Source: a virus
Length of the DNA stretch: 21,027 nt
IMG/VR virus record: IMGVR_UViG_3300047668_000866
Location: 1 to 21,027 of that record
Reading direction: 5' to 3' (one strand)
A program made the position numbers and the translations under genes. Below, piece after piece: positions 1-8,443 of this stretch. Below the pieces are notes generated by a model, which saw only the letters and a program-made list of their open reading frames with translations, was not told the DNA's origin and made no database searches. How positions within the stretch are numbered: the stretch's first letter is position 1; each line of letters begins with the position of its first letter.

Positions 1-575
1 TGTGTGAAAATCAGTTTGACAGGTTCGTTTGTTTCACCGATCTCACCACTGGACTAAATGACAACATAGATTGTCTTCCTATAGATGGATTGGGTAACTG
101 GGAAAAAATATCTCTCCTCCACAATAGCTTTGATGGAGATAACCTATACCTTGACTTGGATGTCATCGTACAGGGTAATCTTGACCCGTTATTCGCGTTG
201 TGTGATGAACCTACCATATGTGAGACATATTGGAAAAACTTCGGGGGTGAGTGGAACTCCAGTGTTATGGCATGGAACAAGTCTAATGCAAGTCACATAC
301 CAGAGTATTTCTTTGAGAACTATGATTATAACTTGCATAAATATAACGGTAAGGATGATAACTTTTTATATGATGAGAACCTATTCAAGAGAACCTTTCC
401 TAAAGGGTTGATATACTCTTTTCTTGGCGGCGTAGATGTTGAATCAGATACTTCCCCAAGGGCCCATCAAATAAAACCAGATTACCCAGTTGTTCTTTTG
501 AATGGGCAAAATGAAGTCAACTACAATTTGAGACAAAAATATTATGATGCACTTTCTTTGCATAAAATGGGGTAA
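1..575 (+). CDS. GT-A-type glycosyltransferase, 5'-truncated by the window edge
   Basis: The reading frame is open from the first complete codon at position 3 to a TAA at 573..575, so the true start lies outside the window. The visible 190 residues contain a CFTD segment near residue 10, a DLD motif (residues 51-53, YLDLDVIVQG) of the metal and nucleotide-sugar binding type, an NSSV segment, a DDN segment and a YSF segment. The three other plus-strand glycosyltransferases share the same blocks in the same order. By family it should transfer a sugar from a nucleotide donor; donor and acceptor cannot be read. It overlaps the next gene by 32 bases, so the two are probably translationally coupled. 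Assignment as a glycosyltransferase is firm; the exact family (GT8-like or other) is not. Confidence 0.85.
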   Translation, partial: CENQFDRFVCFTDLTTGLNDNIDCLPIDGLGNWEKISLLHNSFDGDNLYLDLDVIVQGNLDPLFALCDEPTICETYWKNFGGEWNSSVMAWNKSNASHIPEYFFENYDYNLHKYNGKDDNFLYDENLFKRTFPKGLIYSFLGGVDVESDTSPRAHQIKPDYPVVLLNGQNEVNYNLRQKYYDALSLHKMG

Positions 576-3276
576 CAAGTACTCTCCAGAATATGTAAAC
601 AATCTCTACAAAATGGTTCAGCAAAACTACTCCAAACGGTTTAAGTTTATATGCTACACGGACGAACCAGAGGGCATAGAGAAATCTATCAAGATTCGAC
701 CTATTCCAAATGTAGACCCCCTGCATCCAAAGTACTGGTTTGGCCAAGAAAACTTCTGTTGGGATAGAGCAAAGTTTCTTGTCTTGAACTCCCATCATTG
801 GTTGAAGACAAAGGGGCCTTTCTGTTACCTAGATTTAGATGTAATAATCCAAAACAACATCGATGAGATAGACGAACTATCCAAATCCCCGCACATGCTT
901 TACTCTAACTGGGAAGACCCTCGCGTACTAAAGGATAGAAGATTTAGTGACATACGGGGAAGTTTGTATAACTCCAGCGTAATGTTATGGTGTACCGACC
1001 AAGGCGAAAAGATTTACAATGATGTAATGAAACACAAAGATACTGTGTTTAAGACTTTCTTTAAAGGTACTGACAACTATTATCCCTACAGAGAACACGA
1101 TGTAGTCGGTGATAACTATTGGACTTTCTTGCCTGATGATTGGGTGTACTCGTATAATAGGGGAAGAACATATCCAGATGACGTAACACAACATCTATAC
1201 AGAGAGAATTCTAAGTTTTGTATATTTGAAGATTCTATTGGCGGCAAAAATAAGAACAACCTCAAACCACACGAACTGAGAGACTACAATCTTTTAATCC
1301 ACTGGCATGGCAAAACAGAATTTGAAAGACTCTGGTTACCCAAATTTCCCGACAACTTTTTCGATAAGAATAAACACACGGATAGAATTGATACCCTGAT
1401 TGAAAACGCAAATGAGTACGACCCATTTGTAAAACAGATTGAGGCTAGACACAAATCAACCATCGATGAATTCAGCAATGATTTGATTTCTATGCATAAG
1501 AAGTTTTTAGCAGACTTCCCAACAGACCCATTGTTACTCAGTGGAGATGAATCATTGTATTGGAATAAAGATGCCGATGGTATCTATGAATTCTACGAGG
1601 ATAGATTCGTCTACAAGATGCACAAAGTTGTATTTAATATCCTTGAAGAGAAGTTTAAGAAAGATAACCCCAAGATTAAAAGTGATTGGGAACAGTACAA
1701 CAACTCGTTTAACAATATCAAAAACTGGTCTAAGTTTGATTCCATGTCGGATGATACCCTAGAAAAGAATTATATGGATGCGAATATTGTGAATGGCATT
1801 CGTTCCATGATAGAAGAGAACGACTTGGTATCTCTTGCCGATAAGATGATTGAGTATTTTCCCGAACTAGATTTGCTCTTTGAAGGCACAGTGTCACAAA
1901 TAAAAGAAGCCTTTCCAGAGATAGAGAAAGAAATATCTGACCTGACTTTCATTCGACAGATAAAACCAGAACATAGGAATACAATCAAGGAGATATATGA
2001 TACTGGTGATATGATTTCCATGCATAAGAAGTTTTTAGCAGACTTCCCAGAGGACACACTTCTTATCAATGGCAGTCAATCCTTGTACTGGAACAAGAAT
2101 GTGGATGGTATATACAACTTCTACAAAGAAAGATATATTGCTAGACAACATGCGGTTGTTTCGGCCGAACAGGTTGTTCATGGCCCAGTGAGATATTTTT
2201 GGAACATTACTAACTACCAATGTTTTGCATTGTATCGGAGACTGTGGCACAAGAATGTTCTACCAAAACTCAAAGACGAGTTTATGAACAATGTGAAACT
2301 CTATGGTATGCAGCGATTGTTCTGGGACGCGAGTAATGAGGATACACAACAATTATATAAAAGATACTACATCGATAATCTCAAAGAACTCTTTTACAAA
2401 CAGGATTACGAGGCGGTATTTGAAAGACTATATAACATCATACCAAAAAATGACCTGTTAAACATTTTAAAACAGGACAAGACATCGGATGATGATACCC
2501 TAGTAAAGTATTTTCAAATGCATGGTGAACAATACAGTGACATGTACAAGGGATTGTATGAAGATGGCTCACCGGAAGGAGCGTTAATTCAACTCAGTAG
2601 TTCAAGAAATGATACGGATGACGAATACAATGACATCTTCGTAACTGGTCACGAACACACTTTATCATCTATCAAAAAGATATTCGATAGATACGGTGTG
2701 AGTTGGGTGACATTGATGTGTGAAATAAGTGACCCGACCAAGGCGCTTTGGTTTGAAGACATCTGCAAATATTTTCGCAAGAAAAATGTCACGGTGCATG
2801 TTCAGACGTATGATAAAAGTTATCTCAAACCAGAATGGGTTGACGATATCGAATATATAGATCATCCTCAACTCTCTGAGAATATGCCAGTTATAAGGAA
2901 AACGATAGCAAGTGATATCCCAGTTGACTTAGAAACACTGAAAATATTTAAGAAGAAAGATGAGGTAAGGAGACCAAAACCCAAGGCGAAAAAAGCAGAA
3001 CCAGTGTGGTGTGATGCTCGAAAGAGTGGTTACTTCTATATTAGTTCTGACGGTGGTGCATACCCATGCGCTTGGACTGCTAGAGATGTATTAGAGAATA
3101 GGGTATTGCCATACCACCCCATCGACTACACATACAATAGTAAGTACAATAATTTAATCCATTTCACCGTGGGCGAGGTTATATATAATAATGACTTTGA
3201 AAATATAAGTGAAAGTTTAAAGAGGAATCCTTTGAATATTTGTAATAAAAAGTGTGGTGGTTGCCATGCGAGTTAA
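544..3276 (+). CDS. Glycosyltransferase fused to a repeat region and a C-terminal SPASM-like Fe-S domain
   Basis: A 910-residue protein in three parts. Residues 1-285 are a GT-A glycosyltransferase: KWGNKY near residue 8, CYTD at 37-40, DLD at 97-99, NSS at 143-145, DN at 177-178, YSYNRGR from 202 and HWHG at 253-256. Residues about 300-690 are helical-looking and carry repeats: D313-V356 and D489-I532 are near copies, and two weaker copies follow. Residues about 692-800 have short strands (IFVTGHE, WVTLMCEI, VTVHVQTY) like part of a radical-SAM barrel, but no CxxxCxxC motif exists in the protein. A Lys/Pro-rich linker then leads to Cys823-x13-Gly-x4-Cys842 and Cys900, 904 and 907 at the C-terminus, which fits the first half of the SPASM motif plus a closing cysteine cluster. 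The start is ATGATG at 544 or 547; no strong Shine-Dalgarno is seen. The GT call is firm; SPASM-like is a motif-level call. Confidence 0.85.
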   Translation: MMHFLCIKWGNKYSPEYVNNLYKMVQQNYSKRFKFICYTDEPEGIEKSIKIRPIPNVDPLHPKYWFGQENFCWDRAKFLVLNSHHWLKTKGPFCYLDLDVIIQNNIDEIDELSKSPHMLYSNWEDPRVLKDRRFSDIRGSLYNSSVMLWCTDQGEKIYNDVMKHKDTVFKTFFKGTDNYYPYREHDVVGDNYWTFLPDDWVYSYNRGRTYPDDVTQHLYRENSKFCIFEDSIGGKNKNNLKPHELRDYNLLIHWHGKTEFERLWLPKFPDNFFDKNKHTDRIDTLIENANEYDPFVKQIEARHKSTIDEFSNDLISMHKKFLADFPTDPLLLSGDESLYWNKDADGIYEFYEDRFVYKMHKVVFNILEEKFKKDNPKIKSDWEQYNNSFNNIKNWSKFDSMSDDTLEKNYMDANIVNGIRSMIEENDLVSLADKMIEYFPELDLLFEGTVSQIKEAFPEIEKEISDLTFIRQIKPEHRNTIKEIYDTGDMISMHKKFLADFPEDTLLINGSQSLYWNKNVDGIYNFYKERYIARQHAVVSAEQVVHGPVRYFWNITNYQCFALYRRLWHKNVLPKLKDEFMNNVKLYGMQRLFWDASNEDTQQLYKRYYIDNLKELFYKQDYEAVFERLYNIIPKNDLLNILKQDKTSDDDTLVKYFQMHGEQYSDMYKGLYEDGSPEGALIQLSSSRNDTDDEYNDIFVTGHEHTLSSIKKIFDRYGVSWVTLMCEISDPTKALWFEDICKYFRKKNVTVHVQTYDKSYLKPEWVDDIEYIDHPQLSENMPVIRKTIASDIPVDLETLKIFKKKDEVRRPKPKAKKAEPVWCDARKSGYFYISSDGGAYPCAWTARDVLENRVLPYHPIDYTYNSKYNNLIHFTVGEVIYNNDFENISESLKRNPLNICNKKCGGCHAS
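1492..1521 (+). repeat. 30-base exact direct repeat, copy 1, inside the fusion gene
   Basis: Begins ATGCATAAGAAG and ends GACTTCCCA; identical to 2020..2049, 528 bases (176 codons) downstream and in the same frame. It encodes MHKKFLADFP. Protein similarity extends further on both sides (residues 313-356 against 489-532) although the flanking DNA has diverged. Confidence 0.9.
2020..2049 (+). repeat. 30-base exact direct repeat, copy 2, inside the fusion gene
   Basis: Second copy of the repeat at 1492..1521, base for base identical over 30 bases and preceded by a near-identical codon run (GATATGATTTCC against GATTTGATTTCT). Confidence 0.9.
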
Positions 3277-4233: not shown

Positions 4234-4907
4234 TGAATATTTACACGGTAAAATGGGGTGAGAAATACAATCACCAACATGTAAACAAAATCTATGAAGC
4301 GTGTCTAGAGTTTGTGACTTGCGACTTTAATTTCTTTTGTCTGACAGAAAATCCAAAAGGATTGGATGAGAACATTACCCCGTTAGCTTTGCCGGGCGGA
4401 AACAAACTGGCTAAGTGGTGGAACAAGATGTATCTCTTTGATACTAGTATTGTCTCCCAGAAGGGAGAGAAGATGTTCTTTGACATCGATACTATACTAC
4501 AACAAAACATAGACTCAATTGTGAACTACGAACCAGAAGATAATCTTTGTTTCGTGAAGACATGGTGGCACGACTTAGAATCTTCTTATAAAAACACTAG
4601 ACACATTCCGCATAAATATACCGATCTAAACTCTTCGGTTCTTAGGTGGAATGATGAGTTGAACACGGAAGAGATTACAGAATACTTTAATAAACATCGA
4701 AAACAAATACTATGGTACTATCGTGGTCTTGACAACTTCTTCTACAACAGAAGAATAACCAAAATCAAATTGTTTCCTATCGGTTGGGTGTATAGTTTTA
4801 ACCAAGGCTATATATTTCCACACGACATAGAAAAACATACCTACAGGGAACTACCATACATTTGTATTTTCGACTCAATGGGAAAAGGTGAAGATGTTAA
4901 ATTTTAA
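4227..4907 (+). CDS. GT-A-type glycosyltransferase (divergent paralogue)
   Basis: 226 residues from the ATG at 4227. It shows VKWGEKY near residue 8, FFCLTENPKGLDENI, a WW.K segment, FFDIDTILQQNID with DID at 86-88 in place of DLD, LNSSVLRWN, GLDNFFYNRR and GWVYSFNQGY. These are the same ordered blocks as in the other plus-strand glycosyltransferases, but it is more divergent and shorter. An AGGAAA at 4212..4217 is well spaced for the ATG at 4227. A second ATG at 4233 overlaps the preceding stop as TAATG and is also possible; an in-frame ATG at 4194 would overlap the small membrane-protein gene by 40 bases and is less likely. It overlaps the next gene by 14 bases. The substrate is unknown. 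Confidence 0.83.
   Translation: MVMNIYTVKWGEKYNHQHVNKIYEACLEFVTCDFNFFCLTENPKGLDENITPLALPGGNKLAKWWNKMYLFDTSIVSQKGEKMFFDIDTILQQNIDSIVNYEPEDNLCFVKTWWHDLESSYKNTRHIPHKYTDLNSSVLRWNDELNTEEITEYFNKHRKQILWYYRGLDNFFYNRRITKIKLFPIGWVYSFNQGYIFPHDIEKHTYRELPYICIFDSMGKGEDVKF
4885..4890 (+). promoter_or_regulatory. Ribosome binding site that selects the ATG at 4894
   Basis: AAGGTG lies three bases before ATG 4894 within GGAAAAGGTGAAG. The in-frame GTG at 4888 is part of this purine-rich site itself, so the ATG two codons later is the better start for the methyltransferase-like gene. Confidence 0.6.
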
Positions 4908-5577
4908 TTTTTTGAATAATTTGAAACACTGGGGTGAAGCGTTACATATTATAGAAAACAAAATGCCCCATAAACTAACAGATTTTAGGCAGTCTCTACA
5001 AGAAAATAATATGGAGGCCTCAATCTGGTTGGTTGAAGAACTTAAAAAATACTTAGAAGAATATTATACCAAACAAGGAAACCTCAGAATATTAATACTG
5101 AATTCTTGGTTGGGTGTTCCTATGGTTCCTCTTCTATGTGAGAATTTAGATGTAGGTCAGATACACCTAGTCGATATGGATGAGGAAAGTATTACTCTGT
5201 CCAAGTCATTCCACAAATATTACGCCCAAGAGAAGTTTGTAAACATCCGACATTGGAACATGGACATCCCATTTGAGTTTGAGAATCTAAACAAGATTGA
5301 TGTTGATGTGGTAATTTGTATTCACACGGAACAGATGTATCCGTTAACAGAACTCAACGGCAAGAATCCCAACGCAGTCTATGCAATGCAGAATTCAAAC
5401 GTGGTTGAAGAGATGTATGGCATCAACTGTGTCAACTCTATAGACGCACTGAAGGAACAGGTGGGTATATCAGAGTGTGGGTACGAGGGAACCAAACAAC
5501 AAGTATATTACTCGTGGGAAGGAAAGAAAGACTTTGACCGATATATGATTATCGGCCAGAGAGAAGGTTTCTTCTAG
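4894..5577 (+). CDS. SAM-dependent methyltransferase-like protein
   Basis: 227 residues. The order of elements fits a class I Rossmann methyltransferase: a strand and turn at about residues 66-80 (LRILILNSWLGVPMVPLL) in the place of motif I, an acidic strand end (IHLVDMDEES) where the ribose-binding acid is expected, NMDIPFEF, then a hydrophobic strand DVDVVICIHTEQMYPL in the place of motif IV. The C-terminus FDRYMIIGQ resembles the RFM.IG ending I recall from a methyltransferase-like family in marine T4-like phages. The glycine pattern of motif I is degenerate, so activity is uncertain. It is the last gene of the plus-strand run and its TAG shares a CTAG palindrome with the stop of the convergent gene. 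The substrate is unknown; a glycan or nucleoside is possible from context but not shown. Confidence 0.6.
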   Translation: MLNFNFLNNLKHWGEALHIIENKMPHKLTDFRQSLQENNMEASIWLVEELKKYLEEYYTKQGNLRILILNSWLGVPMVPLLCENLDVGQIHLVDMDEESITLSKSFHKYYAQEKFVNIRHWNMDIPFEFENLNKIDVDVVICIHTEQMYPLTELNGKNPNAVYAMQNSNVVEEMYGINCVNSIDALKEQVGISECGYEGTKQQVYYSWEGKKDFDRYMIIGQREGFF

Positions 5578-6197: not shown

Positions 6198-6904
6198 TTA
6201 TCTATATGCCTATTCAGTAGATAATGTCTAATTATAACTTCGGTGCCATCCAATTCTTCTGGTTTCTGACCGACAACAAAATTCCACCTAGCATCGGGTG
6301 ACTCAAACTCTCCAACAGTAACGGTATCTTTGTGTGCCGTTTTGTTTAGCAAGTACCACATCGTAAATGTATCCCACGGTTTGACCGATTCTGGATACGG
6401 ACTGACATCATGCATCGGCGCACTTTGAATTAAATAATACTTGTACCAATCATCCATCAACTTTGTTGTTGCTTTGTTCTTGCGATATACAAAGATACCG
6501 CAGTGGTATTTCATACTCTCATCATCATTCAGTTTTGTTATCTTTGCATTGTAGGGGCGGTTCAGTGTGAATATCACATCGTTGTCTTTTAGATGGTCGA
6601 ATGCATATCTAATGTCTTCGTGTTCTATCATAGTGTCACAGTCTAGATACATCGTGACATCGTATGGACTTGTAGACAACGCCCACAACTTTGCTCGGTT
6701 GTTCATAGGCATATCATTGCCCAACCCGTCATGCGTTCTTATCTGGTCAAAGAGTTTGTAGTCATCGAGTTCTACCCAATCTGCGTGAGTGAATAGAGTT
6801 ACGTTAGCTTCTGGATAGAAATCTTTGAGGGACTCTGCGGATTTTTTCGCAGCGATGTAATAATCTTTTCTAAGAGAAGCTACATATATGTAGCCCTTAG
6901 TCAT
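6185..6904 (-). CDS. Glycosyltransferase, DCD-type
   Basis: 239 residues from the ATG at 6904. The N-terminus YIYVASLRKDYYIAAKKSAES, then VTLFTHADW, MNNRAKLWAL at 67-76 and MYLDCDTMIEHEDI with DCD at 88-90 form a GT-A fold with a metal-binding DxD, closest in layout to GT8-like enzymes. Further conserved-looking parts are YHCGIFVYRK, PWDTFTMWYLL and the C-terminal IIRHYLLNRH. It differs from the plus-strand glycosyltransferases, lacking the KWG.KY lead and YS[YF]N block, and belongs to another subfamily. The ATG at 6904 forms an ATGACTAA overlap with the upstream stop and has AGGA 13 bases before it. A longer start at 6973 would overlap the upstream gene by 77 bases and adds residues unlike the family. 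The substrate is unknown. Confidence 0.8.
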   Translation of the reverse strand: MTKGYIYVASLRKDYYIAAKKSAESLKDFYPEANVTLFTHADWVELDDYKLFDQIRTHDGLGNDMPMNNRAKLWALSTSPYDVTMYLDCDTMIEHEDIRYAFDHLKDNDVIFTLNRPYNAKITKLNDDESMKYHCGIFVYRKNKATTKLMDDWYKYYLIQSAPMHDVSPYPESVKPWDTFTMWYLLNKTAHKDTVTVGEFESPDARWNFVVGQKPEELDGTEVIIRHYLLNRHIDKWKH

Positions 6905-7403
6905 TTTCGGCAATGTCCTGCGCGGCGAGTTCTGGGAACGTACCATCTGGTTTGAATGTATTTGGTGAGTCATAGAGTGCTTCTGACTGTAGTAACATGG
7001 TTACATAAGCCTGAACTTCTAACTGAGTCTTTGATTTGCGAATCAATTTCTTGAATCGTTTATCGTCTGAGTCTTTGATGGCAGGGATTTCAAATGCTTC
7101 CAATTTCATATTGAACAGGGCTTCTTGCATCAATCGGTTCTTGTGAACTTCTCGTTGCTGGTCTTCCTTCTCTGAATTCTCTTCGCAGGCAATTACATGG
7201 GCATCGGTGTTTGATTGAATATCTTCTTCACTGAACTCTTCCAAGATGGCAGTGAAGTCGGCATTAACCAATCCTTCTGTTATGTTACCAACATTGATTT
7301 GAGCGGGCCGATATGATTCACCAACCAATATTTCACAAAATAGTGAACGGGTTTCTTTATCTATCCATCGGGGGTTGCGGTACTTCGGAGTGTTTTCGGT
7401 CAT
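6897..7403 (-). CDS. Unknown protein, possible tail-fibre assembly factor
   Basis: 168 residues, acidic, with no signal peptide or membrane segment. It starts with an aromatic/proline segment (KYRNPRWIDKETRSLFCEI) and PAQINVGN, followed by an acidic region with alternating charges (about residues 54-90, EEFSEEDIQSNTDAH) and a helical C-terminal half ending TFPELAAQDIAEND. I do not recognise the family. It lies directly downstream of the fibre genes, where T4-like phages often carry fibre chaperones or adhesin-assembly proteins, so that role is suggested by position only. It has its own candidate late promoter at 7455..7462 and a GAGGA ribosome binding site. It overlaps the next glycosyltransferase by 8 bases. 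Confidence 0.7.
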   Translation of the reverse strand: MTENTPKYRNPRWIDKETRSLFCEILVGESYRPAQINVGNITEGLVNADFTAILEEFSEEDIQSNTDAHVIACEENSEKEDQQREVHKNRLMQEALFNMKLEAFEIPAIKDSDDKRFKKLIRKSKTQLEVQAYVTMLLQSEALYDSPNTFKPDGTFPELAAQDIAEND

Positions 7404-7423
7404 AATAAATCCTCATAATTTAA

Positions 7424-7455
7424 ATAGGGGCGGTGTTGATATCACCTACCCCTAT
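7424..7455 (-). terminator. Hairpin overlapping a late promoter; candidate terminator
   Basis: Inverted repeat in the gap between the 324-residue and 168-residue genes: ATAGGGG (7424..7430) pairs with CCCCTAT (7449..7455), and GGTG (7432..7435) with CACC (7443..7446), around a 7-base loop. On the minus strand it is followed by TTTAAATTAT, only a weak U-tract. It sits just after the stop of the 324-residue gene and could end or process the tail transcript. The outer arm shares bases with the late promoter octamer. Confidence 0.5.
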
Positions 7456-7462
7456 ATTTATA
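7455..7462 (-). promoter_or_regulatory. T4-type late promoter, TATAAATA
   Basis: Exact match to the T4 late promoter octamer on the minus strand, in the 65-base gap before the 168-residue gene. Expected initiation is about six bases downstream, near 7449, giving a leader of about 45 bases that includes GAGGA. It would drive the 168-residue gene, the glycosyltransferase and the oxygenase-like gene. Confidence 0.65.
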
Positions 7463-7468
7463 ACACAT

Positions 7469-8443
7469 TTAAGCGGTTCGTATGAACAGTTGTTTCGTTT
7501 CCTGAGTAGCACTAGATGTCAGTACAGTTGCACCAGCGTAAGTACCAGTGTATGTACCAGAGTATGAACCGGCATAAGCACCGTTAAGGAATCCAGCAAA
7601 GAATCTATTGTAGTAACCAGTATAAGAACCAGTGTAGTTTCCAGAGTAGTTCACATTAGAGATACTCTTTAACTGGTCAGTCATGGTTGAACCCATCTGT
7701 ACCCAAGTTCCAGTTGCAGAAGGTGAACCAGTTTGTAGTAAGTATTTTCCAACACCACCAGCAATGATTCGGTTTCTGAATGCGGGAACTAATGTTTGTA
7801 GGTTTGCAGCAGACATTTCCTGCGGTTCACCTGCCGTAGCGGCTTTCAATAGAATGTTCGTGTCTGTACCAGCAGCAGTAGTGGGCGCAGTTTTTTGGTA
7901 AAGATTGTAAGCTACGTCTGTTCCATCAACCTGAGTTTCAGTAAACGTGTACCGACTCGTCCAAGTTCCACCGGAGGGTGAAGATGTTCCAATTTTGTAT
8001 TGGCCAACCGTATTTGCATCCTCAGCGCACATTGCAGTTATAACGAGGTCTAGTACTTCTGTATCTAGTTCCGTGTCTGTGGCTTGTTCTACGGACGTTC
8101 CTGTCCACCTCAGAGGGTTGATTTGAGAACTTTCACTAACAGCACCAGTAGCCTGATTCAATCGATAGACGGTAGTTGTTATAGCTCCACCAGCGGGGTG
8201 TGTTCCTACCGTTTCATTTCTTTCTCTGTTTGAGAATGTTCCTACTTCGGTTGCTGCGGCAGAACCACCCGTAACTATTTTGAGTTCGCCAGTACCGTTA
8301 CCATCAGTATCGGTGGCAAATTTTAGAGTCACCACTCCCGCTACTTGGTTCTTTATTTCGACTGCGGTCAACTCGCGGAGTCCTTGAAGTCCTCCCGCTG
8401 CAGCTGGATAAGCTCCTGCTTTTAATGTTACTGGGCCTGCCAT
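7469..8443 (-). CDS. Virion fibre-type protein with C-terminal Tyr/Gly tetrapeptide repeat
   Basis: 324 residues, low in cysteine, rich in Thr, Ala and Gly, as in phage fibre proteins. The N-terminus MAGPVTLKAGAYPAAAGG is followed by LTAVEIKNQVAGVVTLKFATD and beta-rich segments such as WTSRYTFTETQVDG. Residues 201-260 include MSAANLQTLVPAFRNRIIAGGVGKYLLQTGSP, then a tryptophan segment. Residues 266-303 form about ten Y-x-G-x units, and the chain ends KQLFIRTA. I recall similar Y-x-G-x stretches in structural proteins of marine T4-like phages; their role is unknown to me. AAGGAGAA precedes the ATG and the gene starts 11 bases after the 281-residue fibre gene. A receptor-binding or decorating role on the tail is inferred. 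Confidence 0.75.
   Translation of the reverse strand: MAGPVTLKAGAYPAAAGGLQGLRELTAVEIKNQVAGVVTLKFATDTDGNGTGELKIVTGGSAAATEVGTFSNRERNETVGTHPAGGAITTTVYRLNQATGAVSESSQINPLRWTGTSVEQATDTELDTEVLDLVITAMCAEDANTVGQYKIGTSSPSGGTWTSRYTFTETQVDGTDVAYNLYQKTAPTTAAGTDTNILLKAATAGEPQEMSAANLQTLVPAFRNRIIAGGVGKYLLQTGSPSATGTWVQMGSTMTDQLKSISNVNYSGNYTGSYTGYYNRFFAGFLNGAYAGSYSGTYTGTYAGATVLTSSATQETKQLFIRTA
7535..7648 (-). repeat. Tandem Y-x-G-x coding repeat
   Basis: Codes for about ten consecutive tetrapeptides (YSGN YTGS YTGY YNRF FAGF LNGA YAGS YSGT YTGT YAGA) near the C-terminus of the 324-residue protein. The aromatic residue sits at every fourth position, and two units in the middle are degenerate. Confidence 0.85.

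Follow-up and report, generated by a model that had tools for sequence, protein, structure and literature searches.

In the minus strand of a 21-kb virus record (21,027 nucleotides, the whole of which we call the window), a T4-type late promoter octamer runs into the stem of a hairpin lying between two genes read in the same direction, and the locus raises the question of what such an overlap does at the border between them. Our proposal, to which we give about an even chance, is that a promoter nested in a hairpin insulates, in little space, two units transcribed in the same direction. A polymerase arriving from the fibre genes would make the whole hairpin, and the upstream message would be ended there or marked for 3' trimming; a polymerase starting at the local promoter would begin inside the hairpin, without most of its 5' arm, and would run on into the gene for a 168-aa protein. 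Promoter and terminator would share bases, and the boundary would measure about 40 bp. The geometry of the overlap, the difference between the folds of the two transcripts, the survival of the nesting through a change of promoter class and its recurrence at sites with canonical terminators were all observed computationally.

Promoter and hairpin at the focal locus

The minus strand of the window encodes a T4-like baseplate region, as judged from one gp8-like open reading frame (Pfam PF09215) and others matching PHROGs of baseplate or virion structural proteins; gene calls were our own picks among open reading frames, made without a gene finder. At E 0.001 neither Pfam nor PHROGs gave a match for the 168-, 262- and 207-aa ORFs, which leaves without support the idea, part of the original prediction, that modification genes lie downstream of the promoter. 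Positions 6897-8443, compared as DNA with 50,697 phage records, gave no matches, and a relative of the 168-aa ORF was found at E 0.01 in just one of these records, C48C1 (a weak match, 33% over 58%), a phage classed as Kyanoviridae in which the relative comes after a 10-kb gene annotated as hypothetical and beside tail genes. Two plus-strand ORFs that adjoin the minus-strand units, at 544-3276 (910 aa) and 4888-5577 (229 aa), have no Pfam matches at E 0.001. The late machinery looked for as a companion of a T4-type late promoter (gp55, gp33 and gp45) was found among the ORFs of relatives: gp55-, gp33- and gp45-like ORFs occur in G001 and G008, and a gp55-like late sigma ORF alone in G003, the relative closest to the window, a 39.5-kb contig that holds locus L004 and is identical to the window at the focal site.

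The octamer TATAAATA, a sequence match at 7455..7462 on the minus strand, stands six bases after the stop codon (at 7469) of a 324-aa ORF (7469..8443, minus strand); RNA reading through from this ORF would contain the complete hairpin. Downstream lies the 168-aa ORF (6897..7403, minus strand; ATG at 7403), its start codon 52 nt from the last octamer base. The focal octamer, TATAAATA, is thus on the coding strand and shortly 5' of a gene, as expected of a T4-type late promoter, for which NATAAATA would also have counted. TATAAATA occurs five times in the window, always on the minus strand, against a shuffle mean of 1.58; 5 of 100 shuffles also reach five, so the count alone is just mildly unusual. 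Four copies of NATAAATA in the window are in promoter position, and one has a start-spanning hairpin of -9 kcal/mol or lower, where shuffles predict 0.15.

Base 7455 belongs both to the octamer, as its last base, and to a 32-nt hairpin of 12 pairs (7424..7455, minus strand; -16.7 kcal/mol), which consists of a 5' arm at 7455-7448 and 7446-7443 with base 7447 bulged, a loop at 7442-7436 and a 3' arm at 7435-7424. Within it ATAGGGG (7455-7449) pairs with CCCCTAT (7430-7424). It had been predicted that the octamer ends on the first base of this stem, and the position is right; the helix is larger than was described, having 12 pairs and one bulge. Its stability is unusual (z -4.4; none of 200 shuffles is equally stable), and the GC-rich, stable stem of an intrinsic terminator is present. 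The U-tract after it is weak, with 4 T in 7 bases, and for this reason termination at 7424 is something that we infer; a terminator scan of the window did not list the hairpin, and an Rfam search of 6800-8000 at E up to 1 returned no matches. Some 21 nt separate the end of the stable stem from the 168-aa start codon downstream, and the stem leaves free the likely Shine-Dalgarno sequence, GAGGA at 7410..7414 (minus strand), as read from the sequence.

Passages of PMC1524935 place the T4 late octamer at -13 to -6 relative to +1. By this rule, if the octamer is used, transcription would start at 7449 (minus strand). That base lies within the 5' arm, six nucleotides past the octamer and 46 nt from the start codon, and six nucleotides of the arm would therefore be missing from the local RNA. 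Folding both transcripts, the check proposed with the original prediction, gave a result that fits it, with a best fold of -20.8 kcal/mol for the read-through RNA against -5.8 for local RNA beginning at 7449. The local fold varies with the distance between octamer and start: -14.6 for three bases, where the inner GC stem is kept, -10.9 for four, -8.6 for five and about -6 for six to nine. Since a start three bases past the octamer restores a -14.6 kcal/mol stem, the escape of local RNA from the hairpin hangs on the real 5' end.

Nesting in relatives and at other sites

We collected 25 IMG/VR contigs encoding the 168-aa protein at 69-100% identity, and all 25 have a hairpin at the focal position (-6.6 to -16.7 kcal/mol, merely -6.6 in four of them). 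Four relatives equal the window: the octamer is perfect, the stem begins at its last base, neither a -35 nor a -10 box is left, and in these and the window the start predicted from TATAAATA lies 6 nt into the 32-nt hairpin. The other 21 carry TTGACA-17/18-TA(T/C)AAT with the -10 box (TATAAT in 15 contigs, TACAAT in six, all six with the 18-base spacer) in the loop. Their start is predicted in the 3' arm, at 19 of 22 or 21 of 25 nt of the hairpin, and RNA from this sigma70-type promoter would accordingly lack the hairpin. These 21 also have an octamer-like sequence, CATATATA in 12 (type B) and CATAAATA in nine (type C), but their stem starts 4-5 bases after it, and RNA begun from it would consequently keep much of the stem (-5.0 to -7.8 kcal/mol on its own). 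The type C CATAAATA, a late octamer by the rule of our scans, may be a late promoter too, in which case its RNA would carry the hairpin and meet the T-tract. Of the seven U-tract bases, four are T in the window, the four twins and the 12 type B contigs; the nine of type C have T5-6.

Promoter class and hairpin register have thus changed together between the window type and the 21, and in 26 of 26 sequences (the window and its 25 relatives) there is a hairpin with the better-matching promoter predicted to start inside; this holds for either sigma class. The promoter had been called late, a description that fits the window and its four twins, where TATAAATA is present; it is not the constant part of the arrangement, since in 21 of 25 relatives a sigma70-like promoter matches best. 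That a local start falls inside the hairpin, and that the full stem forms only in read-through RNA, agrees with the folds, with nesting in 26 of 26 sequences and with its recurrence elsewhere, and depends on the start site. Compensation in the focal stem is slight (one pair is changed on both sides, and shuffles match it), too thin for covariation to serve as an argument. The sigma70-type sites are real in this phage group: perfect TTGACA-N16-18-TATAAT occurs six times in G001 (160 kb, both strands) where 0.5 is expected, four of the six being intergenic and before genes. At one perfect site in G001 (L035:11962-11990, plus strand; 17-base spacer) TATAAATA lies in the spacer, and its counterpart in G003 (L040:12964-12971, minus strand) has kept the octamer but neither of the sigma70 boxes, which parallels the focal site.

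A scan of G001 found start-spanning hairpins of -9 kcal/mol or lower at 3 of 26 intergenic octamers, against 0.10 expected, and at two of eight sigma70 sites, against 0.15 expected, one of these two being the focal locus. The octamer sites are those at gp32, p156 and hsp20, the first two of them clear; the hsp20 site was dropped as an escape case, its own transcript keeping the hairpin (-9.2 against -9.9 kcal/mol).

The gp32 site lies between a gp32-like gene and a 509-aa ORF, which from its cysteine motif we read as a probable radical SAM enzyme, and consists of a terminator with CATAAATA at the loop. Among 53 relatives, 52 show the upstream end (the 53rd matched just the 3' part of the gene) and represent 24 distinct sequences. 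The site is nested in 21 of these 24 (47 of 52 loci), with CATAAATA at the loop, a start predicted in the 3' arm and a tail of T6-7; the remaining three sequences (L095, L096 and L097; five loci) have no octamer there, and the contig of L095 carries the element about 1 kb further upstream. Covariation was scored on 10 of the 21 nested sequences, that is, 13 representatives minus L071, which is identical to L054 in this stretch, and minus L072 and L073, whose bulged stem misfits the columns and which both pair by eye. All cells of the 10 rows are paired, and covariation is 0.149 against 0.030 in shuffles (0 of 500 as high), all of it from one of the seven pairs (C-G, A-U, G-U, U-A), the other six being invariant. 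Local transcripts of two gp32-site sequences fold at -2.6 and -4.6 kcal/mol.

Before a 156-aa ORF (the p156 site), TATAAATA leads into a stem, GGGGAC..GTCCCC, that is followed by T5-8. After two of 26 loci were dropped, their match beginning inside the gene, the nest was found in all 12 distinct sequences (24 of 26 loci), with the predicted start at stem position 3-10 and a T score of 5-6 (5 to 8 T by eye) in each. It is kept in G008, with a changed stem, at 48% protein identity, and two local transcripts fold at -3.1 and -5.3 kcal/mol. Both sites have the two parts of an intrinsic terminator, a GC stem and a U-tract, the gp32 site with T6-7 in its 21 nested sequences.

Occurrence in other phage genomes

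Sites were counted as of the escape type where the local RNA loses at least 5 kcal/mol, with a detector that needs an ORF start within 150 nt. In G003, G001, G008 and G009 together, 5 of 66 intergenic octamers were of this type against 2 of 260 permuted 7-mers (Fisher p 0.0045), the five octamers representing just three orthologous sites and both permuted cases overlapping octamer sites already in the count. The gp32 site of G009, plain to see in the sequence, escaped the detector. The stretches read of C48C1, Melnitz-3, HTVC008M and Syn9 showed no significant excess (2 of 42, one each in C48C1 and Melnitz-3, against 4 of 224, three of which overlap the C48C1 site; p 0.24). The site in Melnitz-3, a cultured Methylophilales phage, has TATAAATA in the loop of a terminator (L300:26318-26356, plus strand) between tRNA-Leu and a gp5-like gene, and transcription is predicted to begin in the 3' arm. 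Promoter-before-hairpin cases number four, one each in G001, C48C1, HTVC008M and Syn9, and are weak (-8.0 to -10.4 kcal/mol).

For T4 the control covered 93.9 of 168.9 kb, and in these stretches none of 24 octamers was of the escape type, against 3 of 85 permuted 7-mers. This zero says little about hairpins over ribosome sites, because a published case, I-TevI, lies within the stretches and went unreported by the detector; gene e, we take it, lies outside the 93.9 kb. Four T4 regions have a terminator-like hairpin and then a late octamer side by side, with no overlap, and G001 and G003 share one such side-by-side site. At T4 L047:48038-48085 and L048:11280-11330 (both minus strand), the predicted start of an early-type promoter (TTTACA..TATAGT) falls within a hairpin of 48-51 nt; the two hairpins are near copies, with a Shine-Dalgarno sequence in the 3' arm. 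In G001, a sigma70-type promoter with one mismatch (L038:13568-13617, plus strand) has its predicted start in a -12 kcal/mol hairpin; as this hairpin reaches the Shine-Dalgarno sequence of a 170-aa ORF, the layout resembles that of gene e.

An octamer within 220 nt after gp32 was found in none of seven phage records examined, which were taken from the 40 matches listed of 2,416 matching records; three of the seven (Melnitz-3, DLP6 and pf16) have plain terminators there. Scanning viral contigs for CGCC-W7-GGCG-T6 gave at least 81 sites in 80 of at least 120 stretches, with the loop ATAAATA in 10 and an octamer in the loop in 12; other loops form families of their own, and the scan was for that reason not used as an enrichment test. 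One such family has the loop TTTATAT (13 of the at least 81 sites, in many contigs including L184, L185, L187, L195 and L198), perhaps a single gene family or a mobile element. An identical terminator with TATAAATA in the loop (CGCCTATAAATACAGGCG followed by T7) occurs at L204:7438 and L224:2305, in two further contigs.

Insulator, translational switch or compaction

We rate the arrangement a variant of a known T4 device. Passages of PMC3014915 and PMC2988022 describe, for T4 gene e, I-TevI, segB and Aeh1 mobE, an inhibitory hairpin in the leader whose 5' strand includes a late promoter; as in these genes, the octamer here lies in the 5' strand, the hairpin would form only in RNA started upstream, and late RNA would escape it. 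Their hairpins hide the ribosome site and block translation, whereas here that site stays outside the stem, and U-tracts close the better sites; at the gp32 and Melnitz-3 sites the octamer is at the loop, and the focal promoter of 21 of 25 relatives is of sigma70 type. Could the focal hairpin, with an extension, nevertheless be a translational switch of the gene e type, hiding the 168-aa ribosome site in read-through RNA with no termination? The precedents speak for this, as does the read-through fold of the window, where UUAUAA, encoded by the octamer, pairs with UUAUGA beside the Shine-Dalgarno sequence and gains about 4 kcal/mol (-20.8 against -16.7). We think it rather unlikely: the focal site has the late promoter in the 5' strand, but its stable stem pairs with neither the Shine-Dalgarno sequence nor the start codon, the extension is weak and missing from the G001 fold, and T5-8 tails, the mark of a terminator, follow the hairpins of type C relatives and of the gp32 and p156 sites. 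As the weak extension does reach the Shine-Dalgarno sequence in the window fold, a mixed effect of termination and ribosome-site hiding is possible. The hairpin might instead stabilise the 3' or 5' end of the fibre or 168-aa mRNA, or be an RNase site in it, with no role as terminator. The weak U-tract would suit this, as would the stem kept by an octamer start in types B and C; the T5-6 tails of type C and a sigma70-type start past the 5' arm, which would remove the hairpin, make it improbable.

The overlap might also be mere compaction, an ordinary terminator and a promoter, uncoupled, that overlap in about 65 nt of intergenic space. The window, G001 (gp32 and p156) and G004 have gaps of 52-65 nt where promoter and hairpin are nested, and spaces so short could force an overlap without function; the side-by-side sites of T4, G001 and G003 and the four promoter-before-hairpin cases fit as well. 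T4 itself has a terminator and a late promoter in tandem between genes 8/9, 18/19 and 35/36 (T4 record), likewise in one short space between late genes, but with the hairpin ending before the octamer where here the two are nested; the terminator between genes 35 and 36 is named in a passage of PMC1524935, and another notes a terminator downstream of gene 32 for five of six T4-like genomes. The ordinary gene 32 terminators of Melnitz-3, DLP6 and pf16 resemble the gp32 site in having a hairpin after gp32, and differ in having no octamer in the 220 nt. Against compaction, which we also consider doubtful, stand a start inside the hairpin in every focal sequence despite the joint change of promoter class and register, and the excess of octamers over permuted 7-mers in the window's clade. 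In the literature searched, which included few subscription papers, we recognised no promoters nested in terminators of T4-like phages.

Our preferred reading remains the insulator, for which other sites of related phages provide better evidence than position 7424 does. That the hairpin stops or processes upstream mRNA and lets a separate message restart, as originally proposed, gains from the terminator tails of those sites; at the focal site itself the weak U-tract and the result of the terminator scan count against it. E. coli polymerase is reported in PMC6978380 to stay on DNA after termination, and a far-fetched extension is that the nest is a handover point: a terminated polymerase would remain on the DNA, and the promoter, lying in the same 20-40 bp, would capture it again together with gp55 or sigma70. 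If so, the nest would re-programme polymerase between units, and selection would keep the start inside the hairpin for either sigma class.

The nests extend a translational trick of T4 to apparent transcription boundaries in Kyanoviridae-like marine phages, mostly uncultured, and the arrangement survives a change of promoter class. A promoter start inside a terminator stem would offer a sequence rule for unit borders in the genomes of uncultured phages, and Melnitz-3, being a cultured phage, provides a testable case.
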